Source: Deltaproteobacteria bacterium (GTDB lineage Bacteria; Myxococcota_A; UBA796; GCA-2862545). Taken from it: a stretch of 64,000 bases of DNA. Every line of letters starts with the position of its first letter. The first letter of the stretch is position 1. The stretch is taken from NCBI GenBank assembly GCA_006226595.1, contig SBGP01000082.1:124001-188000 (forward strand). Direction: 5' to 3'. Position numbers and translations under genes: made by a program. This document shows positions 44,537 through 53,851 of this stretch, one piece after another. The notes beneath the pieces were generated by a model. The model searched no databases. It saw only the letters and a list, made by a program, of their open reading frames with translations, and was not told the DNA's origin.

Positions 44537-45298
44537 ATGCCCCACCCGCTCCGCGCCCTGACGTGGGTCCCGCTGCTCGTGCTCACCGCCTGCAAGGGCG
44601 ACGGTCCGGGAGGCAGCGACGACCCGGTCGACCAGGTGTTCTCCGCGACGACCGTGGCCCTCGAGATCGACTACGTCGCCGGAGCCGAGCCCTACACGGG
44701 CGGCGTGGGCGGCGGGGACTGGGAGCTGTTCCGGACCAATGCCGAGGCCCTGTTCGGCGAGGGCATGACGGTCGATGTGCCGACCGCGCTGGCCGACATG
44801 TCCGAGGTGGCAGTCGACGCCGGGCCGTACACCGCAGCCGAGATCCTCGCGATCGCCGACGAGCACCGCGATGCCGTGGACGACGGCGACACCGTGCACT
44901 TCTACGTCGTGTGGCTCGACGGCTACCTCGAAGACGACGACGGCAGCGCCAACGAGAGCGTGCTCGGCGTGTCGATCGGCGACACCCGGGTGATCGCGAT
45001 GTTCAAGCCCGTCATCGAGGGCAGCTCGCTGCTCGACCAGGTCCGGCGGTTCAGCGAGCAGCTCGTGCTCACGCACGAGTTCGGCCACGCCGTCGGCCTG
45101 GTGAACAATGGGATCCCGAACCTCGCGGAGCACCACGACGCCGAGCACGGCGCCCACTGCACCAACGACCGCTGCGTCATGTACTGGGCCCTTGAGGGCG
45201 CGGGCGAGGTCGCGCAGTTCGCGCAGAACTACGTGACCACCGGCAGCACCGTGGTCTTCGACCAGGACTGCCTCGACGACGCCGCCGCCGTGCGCTGA
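44537..45298 (+). CDS. Metzincin-like zinc protease lipoprotein
   Basis: ATG 44537 follows GGAGGAGACGCC. The 253-residue product has the lipobox LLVLTAC and a zinc protease motif QLVLTHEFGHAVGLVNNG (HExxHxxGLxN). The usual third His or Asp of HExxHxxGxxH is Asn here, and HDAEHGAHCTNDRCVMYW follows, with a C-x5-C-x-M Met-turn similar to archaemetzincins. The His residues of that loop may complete the zinc site. An N-terminal acidic domain of about 150 residues precedes it. It is probably an outer-membrane-anchored peptidase. The next gene starts in its stop codon. Confidence 0.83.
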   Translation: MPHPLRALTWVPLLVLTACKGDGPGGSDDPVDQVFSATTVALEIDYVAGAEPYTGGVGGGDWELFRTNAEALFGEGMTVDVPTALADMSEVAVDAGPYTAAEILAIADEHRDAVDDGDTVHFYVVWLDGYLEDDDGSANESVLGVSIGDTRVIAMFKPVIEGSSLLDQVRRFSEQLVLTHEFGHAVGLVNNGIPNLAEHHDAEHGAHCTNDRCVMYWALEGAGEVAQFAQNYVTTGSTVVFDQDCLDDAAAVR

Positions 45299-46200
45299 TG
45301 GGGCTCGACCACCGCGAGTTCGCCGCCCGTCGACTGGAGCCCCGCCCGGTCGCGACACTGGTCGTACTCGCGCTGATCGCCGCTCTCGGTGCCCCCGCCC
45401 TGTTCGCCCACCACCTGTCCCGCATCCCGACGCTGCCGGAGATGCCGGCGGTGAGCTGCACGGCCTACGAGGTGCCGCAGGTGTGCGCCGACAAGGCTCC
45501 CGAGCTCGCCGCGAGCCCCACGGTGGCCGAGGCATACCGCGGTCTCCGACGCGCGCTCCCCGCACCGCCGGATGCCGACGTCGATGCCTCCTGGGGTGAC
45601 CTCTCCCCGAGCGAGCGGGCGCTGGTGTACCAGGTCCTGCGCGATGCCCCCGCGGCACCGGACGCCGCCCTCCCGGCCGAGCTCACCCCTGCGGACGCGA
45701 CCTACGAGACGGCCGTCGCGGACCGTGGTCGCGCCGAGGCCTATGGCGAGCTTCGCCAGGACGCGCTCCGCAGGGTGCAGTTCCAGATCGAGCAGGACCA
45801 GCGCGTGCTCCGCGACCAGCACGCACTGTACGCCGCCGACGTGCTTCACAGCGCGCGGATCTCGGCCTTCGCGTCCGCGCTTGCGGCGCTGGTCCTCGCG
45901 CTCGCCGCCGCCGCGACCGCGTGGATCGGCGGAGCCGTGACCGTGCGTCTCACCCCCCACCACCTCGAGCTCGGTGAGGAGCGGCTTCCCTGGGAACAGC
46001 TCCAGGTCCTCGTGTTCGCGCCGCGCTCGGTCTCCTGGCGCCTGCGGGACGGAAGCGGCGGGCGCGCCCGCGTGTGGATGAGCGACGAGCAACGCGACGA
46101 GCTCGAGCGCGAGTCCCGCCGGCTGCGCGCGGCCGCCGGCACCGGCGAAGAGGACGAACAGGCACGTCGCGCGGTGGAGACCTTGCTCCAGCGCAGTTGA
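45298..46200 (+). CDS. Two-helix membrane protein of unknown function
   Basis: ATG 45298 overlaps the protease stop (TGATG). The 300-residue product has membrane helices at about residues 18-38 and 187-210. A periplasmic loop of about 145 residues with a Cys pair (SCTAYEVPQVC) lies between them. A cytoplasmic tail of about 85 residues looks like a small beta domain (VTVRLTPHHLELGEERLPWEQLQVLVF). No family is recognised. Its stop codon lies inside the conserved 16-mer upstream of the formate dehydrogenase beta gene. Confidence 0.68.
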   Translation: MGLDHREFAARRLEPRPVATLVVLALIAALGAPALFAHHLSRIPTLPEMPAVSCTAYEVPQVCADKAPELAASPTVAEAYRGLRRALPAPPDADVDASWGDLSPSERALVYQVLRDAPAAPDAALPAELTPADATYETAVADRGRAEAYGELRQDALRRVQFQIEQDQRVLRDQHALYAADVLHSARISAFASALAALVLALAAAATAWIGGAVTVRLTPHHLELGEERLPWEQLQVLVFAPRSVSWRLRDGSGGRARVWMSDEQRDELERESRRLRAAAGTGEEDEQARRAVETLLQRS

Positions 46201-46230
46201 ACGGCCCCTCAGCCGCGCCCGGGCTACCCT
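46198..46230 (+). promoter_or_regulatory. Conserved upstream motif of formate dehydrogenase beta gene
   Basis: TGAACGGCCCCTCAGC (46198-46213) is identical to 51085-51100 upstream of the alpha gene. In both places GGCTAC-C-CT or GGCTACACT (here 46222-46230) follows about 10 bp later and resembles a -10 region. The 16-mer is a candidate activator site shared by the two subunit genes. Confidence 0.55.
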
Positions 46231-46247
46231 GCCCGGACGGAGTCCCG

Positions 46248-47735
46248 ATGGAGAAGCACGGAGCCCAGCGCCACCGCATCCTCGCCCTGCTCAAGGAGCG
46301 TGGAGGCCTCACGCGCGAGAACGCCGCCGCGGTCAGCCGCGAGACCGGCATCCCCGAAGCCGACGTGTTCGGAGCCGGCGCGTTCTACGAGCTGCTCTCG
46401 CACCCGGACGTCGACCGCCGCGTGTGCCAGGGCCTGAGCTGCCAGCTCGCCGGCGCCTCCGAGATCGAGGGCATGGGCGTGTCGTGCCTCGGGCAGTGCG
46501 ACCGCGCGCCCGTCGCCATCGGCAAGGACCTGCACGTCGTGCACTACGGCCGCGCCCGCGGCGGCATCACCCCCGACGACCCGTCCCTGCCGATGAACCT
46601 CGGCGGTGAGGACCGCGCCGACTACGCCGCCCTGCACAAGGCGCGCGCGCTCGGCACCGACGGCGTCATCGCCGAGCTCAAGGCCTCGGGGCTGCAGGGT
46701 CGCGGCGGTGCCGGCTTCCCGGCACACCTCAAGTGGGCCTCGGTCGCCAGCCAGCCCGAGACCGAGCGCTACGTCGTGTGCAACGCCGACGAGGGCGAGC
46801 CCGGCACGTTCAAGGACCGCGAGGTCATGCTCCGGCGGCCCCACCTGCTGGTCGAGGGCCTGGCCATCGCCGCCGAGGCCGTTGGCGCGAAGACCCTCTT
46901 CGTGTACGTGCGCGGCGAGTTTCCCGAGGAGCGCGCCAGCTTCGAGCAGGCACTCGACGCCGCCTCCGAGCACGTGGGTCACCTCGACTGGCGCCTCATC
47001 GACGGCCACGGCGCCTACATCTGCGGCGAAGAGACCGCGCTCATCGAGTCCATCGAGGGTCGCCGCGGCATGCCGCGCCACAAGCCCCCCTACCCGACCG
47101 TCGCCGGTCTGTGGGGCAAGCCGACGCTGATGAACAACGTCGAGACCCTCGCCTGCGTGCCGGACATCGTGCTTCGCGGTGGTCAGCGCTTCCGCGACCT
47201 CGGCCGCACCGAGGCCGGCACCAAGCTGTACTGCATCAGCGGACACGTGCAGGAGCCGGGGGTGTACGAGCTTCCCCTCGGCATCACGCTCACCGAGCTG
47301 GTCGAGGCCGCCGGCGGCTACCTCGGCACGCCCAGGGCCTTCTCGCCCGGTGGCGCGAGCAGCGGCTTCCTGCCGATGTCCTTCGCGGACACCCCGCTCG
47401 ACTTCGGCACCCTAGGCAAGCTCGGCTCGATGCTCGGCAGCGCCGGCGTGGTCGTGCTCGACGACAGCGTGGACATGGCCGAGGCCGCACGCTGGCAGGC
47501 CGTGTTCTACGAGGACGAGTCCTGCGGCCAGTGCGCGCCCTGCCGACTCGGGACCCAGCTCGTGCGCAAGGCCCTCGACACCTACCTGGTGAGCGGCGAC
47601 CCCGCCGATCTCGGTCACATCGACGACGTGGCCTGGGAGATGGAGGAAGGCTCGATCTGCGGCCTGGGCATGATCGCGGCGCTGCCGCTGCAGACGGCCC
47701 GCAAGCACTTCCCCGAAGACTTCGGCCCGCGGTAG
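46248..47735 (+). CDS. fdsB: Formate dehydrogenase beta subunit, NuoE-NuoF fusion
   Basis: The 495-residue protein fuses a compact NuoE-like domain to a NuoF-like diaphorase. Its 2Fe-2S ligands are in VCQGLSC (Cys-x4-Cys) and SCLGQC (Cys-x3-Cys). The diaphorase has NADH/FMN segments GRGGAGFPAHLKW, CNADEGEPGTFKDR and GAYICGEETALIESIEG, and a 4Fe-4S site ESCGQCAPCR plus a later Cys in SICGLG. It passes electrons from the molybdenum subunit to NAD+. FdsB with fused NuoE/F is typical of soluble NAD-dependent formate dehydrogenases. Its catalytic partner lies at 51128, separated by five unrelated genes but sharing an upstream motif. A hydrogenase or complex I role is less likely because no other Nuo genes are near. 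Confidence 0.87.
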   Translation: MEKHGAQRHRILALLKERGGLTRENAAAVSRETGIPEADVFGAGAFYELLSHPDVDRRVCQGLSCQLAGASEIEGMGVSCLGQCDRAPVAIGKDLHVVHYGRARGGITPDDPSLPMNLGGEDRADYAALHKARALGTDGVIAELKASGLQGRGGAGFPAHLKWASVASQPETERYVVCNADEGEPGTFKDREVMLRRPHLLVEGLAIAAEAVGAKTLFVYVRGEFPEERASFEQALDAASEHVGHLDWRLIDGHGAYICGEETALIESIEGRRGMPRHKPPYPTVAGLWGKPTLMNNVETLACVPDIVLRGGQRFRDLGRTEAGTKLYCISGHVQEPGVYELPLGITLTELVEAAGGYLGTPRAFSPGGASSGFLPMSFADTPLDFGTLGKLGSMLGSAGVVVLDDSVDMAEAARWQAVFYEDESCGQCAPCRLGTQLVRKALDTYLVSGDPADLGHIDDVAWEMEEGSICGLGMIAALPLQTARKHFPEDFGPR

Positions 47736-47853
47736 TCGACCGACGACGAGCTGTCGTCGAACGTGGACACACCACAGCCCCAAACACGGACGAACCGGCA
47801 CTTTCGCGTGGCACGGTGGGTGCATTCCAGGAGGACATCACCTCGGAGTGCCC

Positions 47854-48555
47854 ATGCCCCGCATCCTGTTCCTGCTCGTCCTCCCGACCACCGCCTTCGC
47901 CACCGACGTGTGCCACGTCGCCGGTGACGGCCACACCGAGCGCCTCACCGTCGCCGAGGCCGCCGTGGCGGCCCATGTCGCCCACGGGGACTGGCGGGCG
48001 AGTGCGACCGACGCCACTGCCGATGGCCGCGACGACGACTGCGACGGTCAGATCGACGAAGATGCCAGCTGCTCGCTGTTCGACGAGGCCGACCTCGACG
48101 CGCTGCTCGCGGTGCTCCCCGCTCCGTCGGACTGGGCCTCCTTCGAGGCCTCGGTCGAGTGGCAGCGCTTCGACCGGGACTTCGACGCCCACGTCGACAA
48201 CGGCTCGTGGTGCGACGGCTTCTCGGGGACGCAGCACCAGGAGTGGTTCGAGCTCGACGTGCGCTGGCGGGGAAACCTCGCCGAGGCGAACCCCGACGCC
48301 TCGGGCTTCGCGGCCTTCACCTACGACCTGAACCTCCAGTCCATCACCTACGAGGGCCAGACCTACGAGGCGAACCGGGAGGAATGGTGGGACGCGACCG
48401 GCGGAGACGGCATCGCCGAGACCCGCAACATCGAGACCATTCGCGGCGTGAACGTCTCGGCATGCGGGGCCCTGCTCGTGGCGTGGGCCGAGTCCAAGGG
48501 CTTCGCCACCAAGGTGCATCTCGTCACCGAGGTCGAGGACTGCGTCGTCCCCTGA
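47854..48555 (+). CDS. Secreted protein with MopE-type Asp/Cys motif
   Basis: I choose ATG 47854; GTG 47848 is also possible. The 233-residue product has a signal peptide (MPRILFLLVLPTTAFA), a short metal-binding motif DGRDDDCDGQIDED like those repeated in the MopE-type protein at 55129, and a domain with six further Cys. Segments include DNGSWCDGFSGTQHQEWFEL and FTYDLNLQSITYEGQTYEANR. It is extracellular and of unknown function. It follows fdsB by 118 bp, probably as a separate unit. Confidence 0.72.
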   Translation: MPRILFLLVLPTTAFATDVCHVAGDGHTERLTVAEAAVAAHVAHGDWRASATDATADGRDDDCDGQIDEDASCSLFDEADLDALLAVLPAPSDWASFEASVEWQRFDRDFDAHVDNGSWCDGFSGTQHQEWFELDVRWRGNLAEANPDASGFAAFTYDLNLQSITYEGQTYEANREEWWDATGGDGIAETRNIETIRGVNVSACGALLVAWAESKGFATKVHLVTEVEDCVVP

Positions 48556-48611
48556 CCCCACGGTCACCGGCTGAAATCGTCGGTGGCTACGCCCACACGT
48601 ACCGTTCGCAA

Positions 48612-48836
48612 ATGGAGGTGCGCGTGTTTCTCGCGACCATCGTCACCGCCGCCATCCTGCTCCTCCTCGCCACCGGCGTGGAGGTCTGCGTTCGCTTGCG
48701 ACGCGAGGAAGACGATCAGCCGATGGGATTGGCCCACACCAGGGGCGCCTCGGGGTGCACGCCGTCCACGGCGACCTCGCGCACGGACGGGTCCGGGTCG
48801 TCGACCAGGGACGCGAGCACGCCCTCGTTCCCGTAG
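48612..48836 (+). CDS. Possible small membrane protein overlapping a convergent gene
   Basis: ATG 48612 opens a 74-codon frame: MEVRVFLATIVTAAILLLLA then TGVEVCVRLRREEDDQ. It gives one convincing membrane helix with a basic flank. The last 40 codons run antisense to the end of the gene at 48716-49747 and are probably not under selection. No ribosome binding site is obvious. Coding status is doubtful. Confidence 0.3.
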   Translation: MEVRVFLATIVTAAILLLLATGVEVCVRLRREEDDQPMGLAHTRGASGCTPSTATSRTDGSGSSTRDASTPSFP

Positions 48837-49747
48837 GTATGCGCCGCGATTGCCGCGGAGCGACGGACCAGCGGCACCGGGTGCGCCGCGTAGGTCGCGA
48901 GTTCCGCGTCGAGCGCCGGCGTGCCGTAGATCACCGCGGCGAGAAGAGTCAGCAGCGGGCCGAACTGGGTGTCCTCCTCGCCCGCGTCGGCGGCGCGCGC
49001 GAAGACCTCGCGCAGCTCGTCGGCCTCGAGGTAGTGGAAGCCGAGCAGGCACGCGACGAGGTCGACCGGCATGTCGAGCGGGTAGGCGCAGTGCCCGAGG
49101 GCATCGTTCACCGCCTGGACCGCGGCCGCGTGCGGCGCGGGCACGTAGGACAGCGTCCACACCCAGGCCTCGCCGAAGTGCATCTCGAGGCCCGCGAAGC
49201 TCGCGGTGCAGCGCGTGTAGGCGCCCATCGACGTGCCGCCGCGGAACGGGTTGAACAGCCAGTAGTTGGTGAGCTGGTCCACCGTCGAGTGGGTGAGCTC
49301 ACCGCTGTACACGTTTGGGACCAGGACCTCGTCGGTGTAGCCGGCCCAGGCGCGACGCTCGGTGCGCGCGGCCTCCTCTGCTGCGGGACGCACACTGGCG
49401 ATCGCCGCGCGGAGGGCGTCGACCGTCGGCTCCACCGGGATCCACAGCAGCGGGCTGATCTCCGCGGTGGCCGCGAACCACAGGGTCGAGGGCTGCTCCG
49501 CGTCGACGAACCAGGCACCTTCGGCCTCGAGCTCGGTCCCCGCGTGGAACACCGGGCCACGGGCCACGAGGCGCTTGCCCTGCGCGCGCTCCACCGAGCG
49601 CATCCACGTCTCTCCTGGCCACAGCGTGCCCATGGGCAGGGTCTCGCCGTCGAAGCGCTCGGCCAACGTACGGCCCCCCTGCTCGGCCTCCGGGGGCGTG
49701 GTCGGCACGAGCCCCGCGGCGGCGAAGTCGACGACGGGCCAGGACAT
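48716..49747 (-). CDS. Hypothetical protein with C-terminal HEAT-like repeats
   Basis: ATG 49747 follows GGAGGTTCC. The 343-residue soluble protein has a mixed N-terminal domain (MGTLWPGETWMRSVERAQGK, a beta-rich region, WAGYTDEVLVPNVYSGELTH). The helical C-terminal portion includes EEDTQFGPLLTLLAAVIYG, HPVPLVRRSAAIAAHTYG and DDPDPSVREVAVDGVH, the last resembling HEAT/PBS-lyase repeats. No family name can be given. Confidence 0.7.
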   Translation of the reverse strand: MSWPVVDFAAAGLVPTTPPEAEQGGRTLAERFDGETLPMGTLWPGETWMRSVERAQGKRLVARGPVFHAGTELEAEGAWFVDAEQPSTLWFAATAEISPLLWIPVEPTVDALRAAIASVRPAAEEAARTERRAWAGYTDEVLVPNVYSGELTHSTVDQLTNYWLFNPFRGGTSMGAYTRCTASFAGLEMHFGEAWVWTLSYVPAPHAAAVQAVNDALGHCAYPLDMPVDLVACLLGFHYLEADELREVFARAADAGEEDTQFGPLLTLLAAVIYGTPALDAELATYAAHPVPLVRRSAAIAAHTYGNEGVLASLVDDPDPSVREVAVDGVHPEAPLVWANPIG

Positions 49748-49860
49748 GGAACCTCCGAGTCGGCAATACCGACACCGACCTCTCACACGCCGACGCGACC
49801 GCCGCACCGCGCACTGACCTGTTGCAGCGCACCGACGCCCGGGAGCGGATAGCGGAACCC

Positions 49861-50418
49861 GTGCTCGCCGCCCTCCAGACCTTCGCGCTCATCGCGCTCG
49901 CCGAGCTCGGCGACAAGTCCCAGCTCGTGTGCCTCGCACTCGCTGGTCGCTACCGCCCGCGCGACGTGCTCCTCGGCGCCGTGCTCGCGTTCAGCGTACT
50001 CAACGGCCTGGCCGTCACCGTGGGCGCCGCGCTCACCGCTGCGATCGGCCCCGAGCCCTTGCGCTGGCTCGCGGCCGCGGGATTCGCGTTCTTCGGGATC
50101 AGCGCGCTGCTCGCCTCCCCCGAGGACGAGGACGAGGACGAGATCGATACCGGCGGTGGCCGGGGTCCCGTGCTGGTCACCGCGGCCCTGCTCGGTGCCG
50201 CCGAGATCGGCGACAAGACCCAGCTGTCGGTGGCCCTGCTGTCCACCGTGCACGAGCCGGTCGGCGTGTGGCTCGGAGCGACCCTGGCCCTGTGCGCGAC
50301 CTCGGCCGTCGCGGCTTACGCCGGAAGCCTGGTCCTCGCGAAGCTGCCCGTGGCTTGGACTCAGCGCGCAGCCGGCGTGCTCTTCCTGCTCGCGGCGGTC
50401 GCGCTGGTCCTCACGTAG
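49861..50418 (+). CDS. GDT1/TMEM165 (UPF0016) cation transporter
   Basis: The product has two copies of the family signature, ALAELGDKSQL and GAAEIGDKTQL, each opening a three-helix half, with an acidic loop EDEDEDEID between halves. The family exports Mn2+ or Ca2+ in exchange for protons. I place the start at GTG 49861, giving 185 residues. A TTG at 49822 would add 13 polar residues ahead of the first helix. The gene is divergent from the HEAT-like gene, with 113 bp between. Confidence 0.9.
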   Translation: MLAALQTFALIALAELGDKSQLVCLALAGRYRPRDVLLGAVLAFSVLNGLAVTVGAALTAAIGPEPLRWLAAAGFAFFGISALLASPEDEDEDEIDTGGGRGPVLVTAALLGAAEIGDKTQLSVALLSTVHEPVGVWLGATLALCATSAVAAYAGSLVLAKLPVAWTQRAAGVLFLLAAVALVLT

Positions 50419-50457
50419 ACCCCGTGGCATGCTCCTCCGGCCCAACCCGGAGGCCCC

Positions 50458-51015
50458 ATGCTGTGGATGCTCGCCCTCGCCTGTTCCCAGGCCCCCGCGC
50501 CCGAGGCGCCGCCGGCGCCGGCAGACGTCGAGCCCGCACCGGTCGAGGCCCCCGCGCCCGAAGTGGCCGCCACACCCCCGTCCGCACCGACGTTGCCCGC
50601 GATGCCGACGCACTGCGCCGAGGGTGAGACGGTGCACTTCGCGTGCGCGGTGAAGGGCGACAAGGTGGTGAGCCTGTGTGGCGTGGGCGATGCGATGCAG
50701 TACCGCTTCGGAAAGCTCGGCGCCGTCGAGCTCGCGGCCCCCGCGAAGCCTTCGAAGGAGGCCTTCGGATATGCCCACGAGGCCTGGGTGCGCGCCGAGG
50801 CGGACGCCGTGCGCATGGTCAACGAGGGCGTGTCCTACTGGCTCGTCGACAAGATCGGCGGCGGTGCCTTCGGCGAGGGCGACATGAACAACTTCACCGG
50901 CGTGGTCGTCGTCGAGGACGGCAAGGAGCTCGCACGGCTGCCCTGCGTGGGTCCGACGGAGACGCGGATCAGCGGCCTCGAGAGCCAGCTCGCGAAGATC
51001 GGCTACCTCGAGTAG
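50458..51015 (+). CDS. Secreted or lipoprotein of unknown function
   Basis: The 185-residue product starts with MLWMLALAC, a very short lipoprotein-like signal, and a Pro/Ala/Glu linker (about residues 11-50). A folded domain follows with four Cys: CAEGETVHFACAVKGDKVVSLC, YRFGKLGAVEL, GVSYWLVDKIGG and LPCVGP. A similar layout (short signal, acidic Pro-rich linker, small domain) occurs in the lipoprotein methyltransferase. Function is unknown. The ATG follows GGAGGCCCC. Confidence 0.7.
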   Translation: MLWMLALACSQAPAPEAPPAPADVEPAPVEAPAPEVAATPPSAPTLPAMPTHCAEGETVHFACAVKGDKVVSLCGVGDAMQYRFGKLGAVELAAPAKPSKEAFGYAHEAWVRAEADAVRMVNEGVSYWLVDKIGGGAFGEGDMNNFTGVVVVEDGKELARLPCVGPTETRISGLESQLAKIGYLE

Positions 51016-51084
51016 CGGCGCGAACCTCCGTCGCAAGCCCCACACCCGAGAGGGGTCGAGCGCTCGAGACGCGGGACATGCCGC

Positions 51085-51119
51085 TGAACGGCCCCTCAGC
51101 GACGAGACCAGGCTACACT
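51085..51119 (+). promoter_or_regulatory. Conserved upstream motif of formate dehydrogenase alpha gene
   Basis: TGAACGGCCCCTCAGC (51085-51100) repeats the 16-mer found before fdsB at 46198-46213. GGCTACACT at 51111-51119 resembles a -10 element and lies just before the ATG at 51128, implying a very short leader. Likely a shared regulator site for the formate dehydrogenase genes. Confidence 0.55.
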
Positions 51120-51127
51120 TCGAGTCC

Positions 51128-53851
51128 ATGGCTGACACCTTCACCGTGACTGTCGACGGCATCGCCGTCCCCGCCGAGCCAGGCGAGACCGTGCTCGACG
51201 CCTGCGCTCGCGCCGGTGTCGACGTGCCCACCCTGTGCCACGACCCCCGCCTCGACCCCACCGGCGCCTGCCGTATGTGCCTGGTCGAGGTGAGCGGGCA
51301 GCGACGCCTGCAGCCGGCCTGCGCGTTCAAGGCCACGCCCGACATGACCGTGAACACGGCATCCGAGCGGGTCGAGCGCCACCGGGCCCTGCTGTTGTCG
51401 ATGTACCTCGCCGACCAGGCGGTACACGATGCAGACGGCCTGCCCGTGGACCACGCGGTCAAGAACGACCTGCGAAGCCACATGGCCGAGCGCGACGACC
51501 TCGTCGCCATGCCGACCATCGGCTCGCCCCGCGCCGCCCGCGAGGACGCGAACCCCTACGTCGGCTTCGACCCGGACAAGTGCATCCTCTGTGCGCGCTG
51601 CACCCGCTACTGCGACGAGATCGAGGGCGTGTCGGCGATTCAGCTCGTGAACCGGGGCGGCAAGACGACCATCGGCACCTCGGGCATGACCGGGCTGCTC
51701 GACACGACGTGCGAGCTGTGCGGCGGGTGCATCGCCACCTGCCCGACCGGCGCGATGCACGAGAAGAAGGCGCCGGTCGACGCGTCCCCCGCCGACGCGA
51801 TGACCCGCACCACCTGCAACTTCTGCGGGGTCGGCTGCCAGTTCGACCTGCGCAGCCGCGATGGCAAGGTGGTCGCCGTCGAGGCGCCCAAGCCGGGTAC
51901 CACCGTCAACGACGGCAACCTGTGCGTGAAGGGGCGCTTCGCCTACGACTTCATCCACCACGAAGACCGCCTCACGGTCCCGCTCGTCCGCGACAACGGA
52001 CGGCTCCGCGAGGCGACCTGGCCCGAAGCCATCGAGCGGGCCGCCAAGGGACTCAACGCCATCCGCGACGCCCATGGGAGCGACGCACTGGGGTTTGTGT
52101 CGTCCAGCCGCTGCACCGGGGAGGAGAACTACCTGATGCAGAAGCTCGCCCGCGCGGCGTTCGGGACGAACAACTGCCACCAGTGCGCGGCCACCTGACA
52201 CGCTCCCACCGTGGCCGGTCTGGTCACCACCTTCGGCGCAGGCGCGATGACGAACAGCATTCCGGAGATCCGGGATGCCGACTTCCTGTTCGTGATCGGG
52301 AGCAACACCACCGAGGCCCATCCCATCATCGCGATGGAGATGAAGCGGGCCGTGCGTAGCGGTGCGACCATGGTCGTCGCCGATCCGCGAGCGATCTGGC
52401 TCACGGACATTGCCGCCACGCACCTGCAGCTGCGTCCGGGCACCGACGTGTGGCTGCTCAACGCCATGGCTCACGTGATCATCGAGGAAGACCTCGTCGA
52501 CTGGGACTTCGTGAACGCGAAGTGCGAGAACTTCGACGACGTGATCGCCGCGGTGAAGGCCTACACCCCCGAGGCCGCCGAAGAGGTCACCGGGGTCTCC
52601 GCCGAGCAGATCCGCTGGGTGGCGCGCCAGTACGCGACCACCGAGAAGGCCGGCATCTACTACACGCTGGGCATCACCGAGCACACGCACGGCACCGACA
52701 ACGTGTACGCGCTCGCGAACCTCGTGCTCATGACCGGGCACCTCGGCAAGAAGAGCGCGGGCATGAACCCGCTTCGCGGCCAGAACAACGTCCAGGGCGC
52801 GAACGACGCCGGCGCGAGCCCCGTGTACTACCCGGGCTACCAGAAGGTCAGCGACCCCGCCGCCCGCGAGAAGTTCGAGGCCGCGTGGGGCGTGCCGCTG
52901 TCGCCCATGGACGGCATGAAGCTCCCGGTGATGATGGACGCCGTCATGCACGGAGAGCTCAAGGGCCTGTACATCATGGGTGAGGACCTGCTGCTCTCCG
53001 AGCCGGACGTCGCCAAGCTCGAAGAGGGCTTCAACAAGCTCGACTTCGTGATCGTGCAGGACATCTTCTTCAACGAGACCTGCCGCTTCGCCGACGTGGT
53101 GTTCCCAGCCGCCTGCTTCGCCGAGAAGGAGGGCGTGTTCACCAACTCGGACCGCCGCGTGCAGCGCGTGCGCAAGAGCGTCGAGCCGCCCGGACAGGCG
53201 CGTGCCGACTGGGAGATCTTGTGCGACGTCGCGCGGGCGAGCGGCTACCCGATGCCGAACTACGCGCATCCTCGCGAGGTCTACGCCGAGATGGCGGCGC
53301 TGTGCGACAAGTTCGCCGGCATCAGCCACGAGCGCATCGAGCGCGAGGGCGGCCTGCAGTGGCCGTGCCCGACGCCGGACCATCCGGGCACGCCGACCCT
53401 GCACATGGACGGCCCGATGCGCGGAAAGGCGTTGTTCGTGGCGGTGCACTACCGTCCCAGTGCCGAGTCGCCGGACAGTGAGTACCCGCTGATCCTGTCG
53501 ACCGGCCGCACGCTGTATCACTACAACTCGGCCACCCAGACCCGTCGCGACGCGGGCCCGAACCACAAGCAGCCCGAGAACTTCATCCAGATCCACCCGC
53601 GCGATGCGCGGCGGCTGGGCATCGACCACGGCGATGCGGTGAAGGTCTCGAGCCGTCGCGGCGAGATCGTCGCGCGAGCGCGGGTGACCAAGGACGTGAA
53701 GCGAGGCTGCGTATGGATGCCGCTGCACTTCGCCGAGTCCCGCGCGAACCTGCTCACCAACGCGGCCGGCGACGCCGTGACCGGCACCGCCGAGTACAAG
53801 GTGTGCGCGGTGCGCGTCGAGAAGGCCGCGGGCAGCGTCGCCGCGAAGTAG
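51128..53851 (+). CDS. fdhA: Selenocysteine-containing formate dehydrogenase alpha subunit
   Basis: This is one 907-residue gene read through an in-frame TGA at 52196-52198 (residue 357). Reading before and after the TGA gives NNCHQCAAT-Sec-HAPTVAGL, the active-site loop of formate dehydrogenases where Sec or Cys ligates Mo/W. The N-terminus is NuoG-like, with a 2Fe-2S domain (CHDPRLDPTGACRMC) and two 4Fe-4S motifs (CILCARCTRYC, CELCGGCIATC). The bis-MGD oxidoreductase follows (CNFCGVGC, GNLCVKGRF, GQNNVQGANDAG). A SECIS hairpin follows the TGA. It oxidises formate and passes electrons to the NuoEF-type subunit at 46248. A frameshift or nonsense mutation is unlikely, since the frame and motif are intact across the codon. 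Confidence 0.95.
52196..52227 (+). promoter_or_regulatory. Bacterial SECIS element
   Basis: Downstream of the TGA (52196-52198), GTGGCC (52211-52216) pairs with GGTCAC (52222-52227, one G-U pair), presenting the five-base loop GGTCT. The loop sequence and its position at +22 to +26 from the U of UGA are the same as in E. coli fdhF, where SelB binds. This directs selenocysteine insertion. Confidence 0.9.

Follow-up and report, generated by a model that had tools for sequence, protein, structure and literature searches.

At class II activator-dependent promoters, such as those of the CRP or MarA/SoxS type, the protein site overlaps the −35 region and there is no good −35 box, and in proteobacteria a single regulator such as LiuR or PsrA serves the genes for branched-chain amino-acid or fatty-acid breakdown. 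A regulon with a shared operator is a known kind of thing. The 16-bp element described here resembles class II sites in that it overlaps the −35 region, lacks a good −35 box beside it and keeps a constrained distance to the −10 box, and it resembles the LiuR and PsrA systems in that one regulator would preside over a set of catabolic genes. However, its dyad centre lies at an estimated −33 or −35 rather than at −41.5, its spacing to the −10 box is 11 or 13 nt, and its sequence differs from the CRP and mar boxes. Similarly, it bears no resemblance to the LiuR palindrome, and its target set adds glutamate dehydrogenase (GDH), purine nucleoside phosphorylase (PNP) and formate dehydrogenase to what LiuR or PsrA governs. 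Motif and target set together match no site known to us, and no description of the motif was found in the titles and abstract openings of the open-licence papers searched, a search that cannot match motifs by similarity. We propose, with a probability of roughly 0.6, that the element is the binding site of one putative regulator, probably dimeric and with activation favoured, of a catabolic regulon. That this would be a new, Myxococcota-type regulator of mixed amino-acid, nucleoside and formate catabolism, whose partly dyadic 16-bp site replaces the −35 box and functions at a spacing of either 11 or 13 bp from the −10 box, though never at 12, is a more tentative suggestion.

The element was noticed as an exact repeat within the window, the 64,000-nucleotide stretch of DNA analysed here. 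The 16-mer TGAACGGCCCCTCAGC occurs on the plus strand at 46198-46213, where its first three bases double as the stop codon of an upstream open reading frame (45298-46200), and again, identically and on the same strand, at 51085-51100. The first copy is followed after 8 nt by GGCTACCCT (46222-46230) and the second after 10 nt by GGCTACACT (51111-51119). Within these lie predicted −10 boxes, TACCCT at 46225-46230, 11 nt past the element and 17 nt before the ATG of fdhB at 46248, and TACACT at 51114-51119, 13 nt past the element and 8 nt before the ATG of fdhA at 51128, all on the plus strand. Because the fdhA −10 box ends so close to the start codon, the predicted fdhA transcript has little or no leader. 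The fdhB gene (46248-47735, plus strand) encodes the NADH-oxidising or diaphorase subunit, with a thioredoxin-like 2Fe-2S domain and a NuoF-type FMN/4Fe-4S part (Pfam thioredoxin-like 2Fe-2S, Complex1_51K and NADH_4Fe-4S), and fdhA (51128-53851, plus strand) joins a NuoG-like 2Fe-2S/4Fe-4S N-terminus to the molybdopterin-containing catalytic part of formate dehydrogenase (Fer2, Molybdop_Fe4S4, Molybdopterin and Molydop_binding). A gap of 3,392 bp separates the two genes, and Pfam searches of four genes that lie in it found nothing related to formate dehydrogenase, one of the four being a GDT1 transporter. Thus the initial annotation was accurate in placing both copies of the 16-mer, in reporting GGCTAC(A/C)CT about 10 bp further on and then the start codon, and in describing the subunit genes as 3.4 kb apart with unrelated genes between them.

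A separate feature of fdhA is an in-frame TGA at 52196-52198 (context CAAT-U-HAPTVAG), which we read as a probable selenocysteine codon. A stop codon occupies this position in all 33 orthologue matches read, whose records include ones under Myxococcales/Deltaproteobacteria, Planctomycetota and Acidobacteria, and it is TGA in 31 of 31 distinct sequences. This clade of formate dehydrogenases looks, from its codons, obligately selenocysteine-dependent.

The exact pair alone proves little, because a G+C-rich window such as this one holds many repeated 16-mers. When the stretch from 38 to 43.5 kb was left out, 22 direct repeats of at least 16 bp were counted, against an average of 2.95 in 20 first-order Markov simulations, which bears out the earlier caution that a 16-mer match in 64 kb is not rare by chance. 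The omitted stretch holds low-complexity tandem sequence (about 40.7-43.3 kb) in which overlapping frames encode long Val-Arg-Val-Gly or Ser-Ala runs. With up to three mismatches the 16-mer pattern was found at three places in the window, against an average of 1.12 in shuffles. Across the whole 7.23-Mb genome (G000) the exact 16-mer occurs twice only, at the two fdh genes, so that a mobile repeat could be rejected and the unrelated exact copies that would have told against the idea did not appear; with up to two mismatches it occurs at 15 places, against three for a reversed control pattern, and several of the 15 stand immediately ahead of catabolic genes.

A degenerate form, TGAASNGCSCCTCAGC, was composed after the first sites had been seen, and its six zero-mismatch places in the genome are accordingly no independent sample. 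Each of the six is followed by a TA at 11 or 13 nt and by an ATG at 27-43 nt. Allowing up to two mismatches gave 96 places, of which 94 were read individually; since the control gave 66, most of the two-mismatch places are background. A TA at 11 or 13 nt was present at two of seven one-mismatch places, upstream of an acyl-CoA dehydrogenase and of an HU-like gene, while among 81 two-mismatch places it stood at 10-14 nt in six and at 11 or 13 nt in five. Two of these last have an ATG 40-41 nt downstream, and the FAD oxidoreductase and the piperideine-6-carboxylate dehydrogenase that follow are probable members of the regulon. The copy at the HU-like gene (L009, one mismatch, TA at 13) was not counted, its start codon being 126 nt away, nor were related elements near the starts of genes at L121, L149, L154, L268 and L272, which have no −10 box at 11 or 13. 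One of them, in the congeneric genome G001 (L268, C146:41793), is a one-mismatch copy, TGAGTGGCCCCTCAGC, upstream of an acyl-CoA dehydrogenase, with the nearest TAnnn box about 35 nt off. Another (L149, G000 C52:109504) contains a perfect palindrome inside TGAACCGCGGTTCAGC, two mismatches from the motif and upstream of an lspA-like gene, and is possibly the site of another regulator.

The six zero-mismatch targets are fdhB, fdhA, IcmF (a fused isobutyryl-CoA mutase, equivalog match), an NAD-glutamate dehydrogenase (Bac_GDH_CD match), PNP (equivalog match, nucleoside breakdown) and a Zn-dependent dehydrogenase related to threonine dehydrogenase that scores below that family's cut-off. Weaker copies add three more, namely the acyl-CoA dehydrogenase, the FAD oxidoreductase, which is of the DAO type, and the L-piperideine-6-carboxylate dehydrogenase (equivalog match, lysine breakdown). 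Most of these enzymes catalyse oxidative or mutase steps in the breakdown of amino acids, acyl-CoAs or one-carbon compounds, and the set may constitute one physiological programme. Within this genome the same site stands before several transcription units of related function, as is characteristic of a regulon. The proposal that the 16-mer is an operator of the fdh pair was supported for both fdh genes but proved too narrow, for the element is not specific to them and about nine promoters carry it in all. By eye alone, we also noticed that the ribosome-binding site just before the ATG is covered by a short inverted repeat, CTTCCC(C)..GGGG(G), in several leaders: those of GDH in G000 and G001, of the Zn-dehydrogenase and the piperideine-6-carboxylate dehydrogenase in G000, and of the acyl-CoA dehydrogenase in G001 (L193, L194, L329, L341 and L268).

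Promoter architecture was compared in 14 predicted promoters, nine from G000 and five orthologues of those. The distance from the motif to the TA of the −10 box is 11 nt in eight, 13 nt in six and 12 nt in none; because the set comprises nine promoters and their own orthologues, the absence of a spacing of 12 is suggestive of a rule but not proof of one. The element takes the position of a −35 box, and no TTGACA-like box is present there, matches to TTGACA at spacers of 16-19 reaching at most three of six bases in all 14 promoters. As examples rather than a survey, the rpsP promoter of G001 and the lexA promoter of G000 have TTGAC at a spacer of 17. An ordinary sigma-70 promoter with a −35 box was thus rejected, as was a sigma-54 promoter, since the GG −24/GC −12 signature is missing and the 14 promoters share, on inspection, a sigma-70-type −10 TA. 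By sequence these promoters have the class II arrangement, with no −35 box and a site at a fixed distance from the −10 box. The best dyad centre falls between motif positions 7 and 8, and the right half, CCTCAGC, is stronger than the left; the partial dyad TGA-N8-TCA is the reason for expecting a dimer. A regulator would dock on the 16-mer in the −35 region, presumably by direct protein binding, and work with the −10 box 11 or 13 bp downstream, activating by bringing the housekeeping form of RNA polymerase to promoters in which a −35 box is missing. The inducing signal may be nutritional, such as amino acids, nucleosides, acyl-CoAs or formate.

We scanned 38 genomes for the element, the organism's own and 37 of its family and order, and found the zero-mismatch form at 12 places in six genomes. 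The congener G001 has exactly two, at GDH and IcmF, and G013, which belongs to another genus, has a single place, at GDH; the matches in G015, G024 and G037 (L140, L137, L141) look intragenic. When upstream regions were read directly, the element was present at three of 21 GDH loci (25 genomes have a GDH match, and 21 of them were read) and at two of 24 IcmF loci. Nine orthologues of the remaining five targets were read in G001 and G013, and eight lack it; the exception is the G001 Zn-dehydrogenase, whose copy is diverged but keeps the spacing of 13 found in G000. No fdhB match was found in G001 or G013, and only one of 41 distinct fdhB upstream regions, that of G012, has the element, in a diverged and weaker copy 13 nt from TAGACT; this site scores 12.3, and in 40,000 stretches of 230 nt taken at random from the relatives' loci no score as high as 9 occurred. 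Between G000 and G001 the GDH motifs are identical at 15 of 16 positions, against 23 of 60 in the 60 nt upstream, and the IcmF pair gives 16 of 16 against 18 of 60 over the same length. For the Zn-dehydrogenase (11/16 against 24/60) and fdhB (12/16 against 19/60) the contrast is smaller. The motif is hence conserved beyond its flanks at GDH in three genomes and at IcmF, Zn-dehydrogenase and fdhB in two each, and it is absent from the orthologous promoters of most other genomes. The comparison of orthologous upstream regions that had been proposed as a check accordingly came out in favour of the operator for GDH (G001, G013), for IcmF (G001) and weakly for fdhB (G012), but not for fdhB in the other 40 regions.

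Wider searches gave little more. A sequence-only covariance model, with 150 candidates scored per genome, recovered the sites it was built from in G000 and G001 and no convincing new one, and the loose pattern CCTCAGC-N11-13-TAnnnT showed no excess in three genomes (14 matches, six of them known sites, against 41 for the reversed control). An order-wide scan of 63 genomes with TGAANNNCNCCTCAN{13,15}TANNNT gave 11 matches in six genomes, against four for the control; seven are promoters already listed and four (L389, L390, L393, L394) look intragenic. This pattern had been loosened after the G012 site was seen, so its G012 match is no independent test.

In reverse complement the element also resembles an SOS box. 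The LexA box of Myxococcus xanthus is CTRHAMRYBYGTTCAGS (PMC9705874). By hand count, 14 of its 17 positions are matched when the fdhA copy and its flank are reverse-complemented; in the fdhB copy the C that this box requires before TGAAC is missing. A LexA/SOS box was rejected, since the targets are not DNA-repair genes and the lexA promoter of G000 itself has no element.

The same operator might instead serve a repressor that sits over the −35 region, obstructing RNA polymerase until a breakdown product of amino acids or nucleosides releases the protein. Many catabolic regulons are run by repressor release, the element overlaps the expected polymerase footprint, and a TetR-family gene (L385), codirectional with the piperideine-6-carboxylate dehydrogenase target, is found three genes ahead of it. 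Yet that gene has no copy of the element upstream of it, a repressor site can usually lie at varied positions but all 14 promoters keep one of two distances, and these promoters have no recognisable −35 box of their own to block; we consider a repressor unlikely, though it is the second-ranked reading. Less likely again, and ranked third, is that the element is what an alternative sigma factor recognises as its −35 sequence. The near-fixed distance to the −10 box and the lack of TTGACA would suit such a factor, but the conserved positions outnumber the usual contacts of sigma region 4, the start of the conserved TGAA, 27 or 29 nt before the −10 box, is further out than a −35 hexamer at about 23, two spacings 2 bp apart would be odd for a sigma factor, and fdhB orthologues without the element have similar −10 boxes. 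An activator is the best supported reading, preferred to a repressor for two reasons only: the element keeps a restricted distance from the −10 box, and no −35 box is present. The neighbours of seven G000 target promoters were listed and include the TetR-family gene and a histidine kinase near targets, but the cognate regulator gene was not identified among them.

Two readings would dispense with a wider regulon. In nearly all relatives fdhA starts from a few to some hundred bases past the end of fdhB, and fdhBA is an operon in most relatives and split in G000; in G014, G015 and G046 the two genes lie on different contigs, which in draft genomes is no proof of a split, and neither has the motif in the stretch read. 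One promoter could thus have been duplicated when the operon came apart, as the 16/16 identity of the two elements would suggest. However, the fdhB and fdhA promoters share the motif and the −10 box but not their flanks (17 of 60 positions upstream, five of 20 in the leader), so that no simple recent copy of a segment produced them, and the spacings differ; with unrelated genes on other contigs carrying the same kind of element, duplication was rejected as very improbable. Least credible of all is a chance repeat in a G+C-rich genome, for although 16-mer repeats are common in the window, this one recurs position-specifically at promoters and is conserved at orthologous ones. The shared operator originally suggested for the fdh genes is supported by degenerate copies at other catabolic promoters, at the same −10 distances, and by conservation at GDH and IcmF.

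We know of no regulons described for this lineage. What began as a two-copy repeat becomes a testable regulon in an uncultured lineage, one that would tie formate oxidation to the breakdown of amino acids and nucleosides. Its spacing of 11 or 13 poses a small mechanistic puzzle for the geometry of activator and polymerase. With an operator on each half, the two subunits of formate dehydrogenase would stay coordinated despite the split, illustrating how an operon may be divided while its parts remain under one switch.
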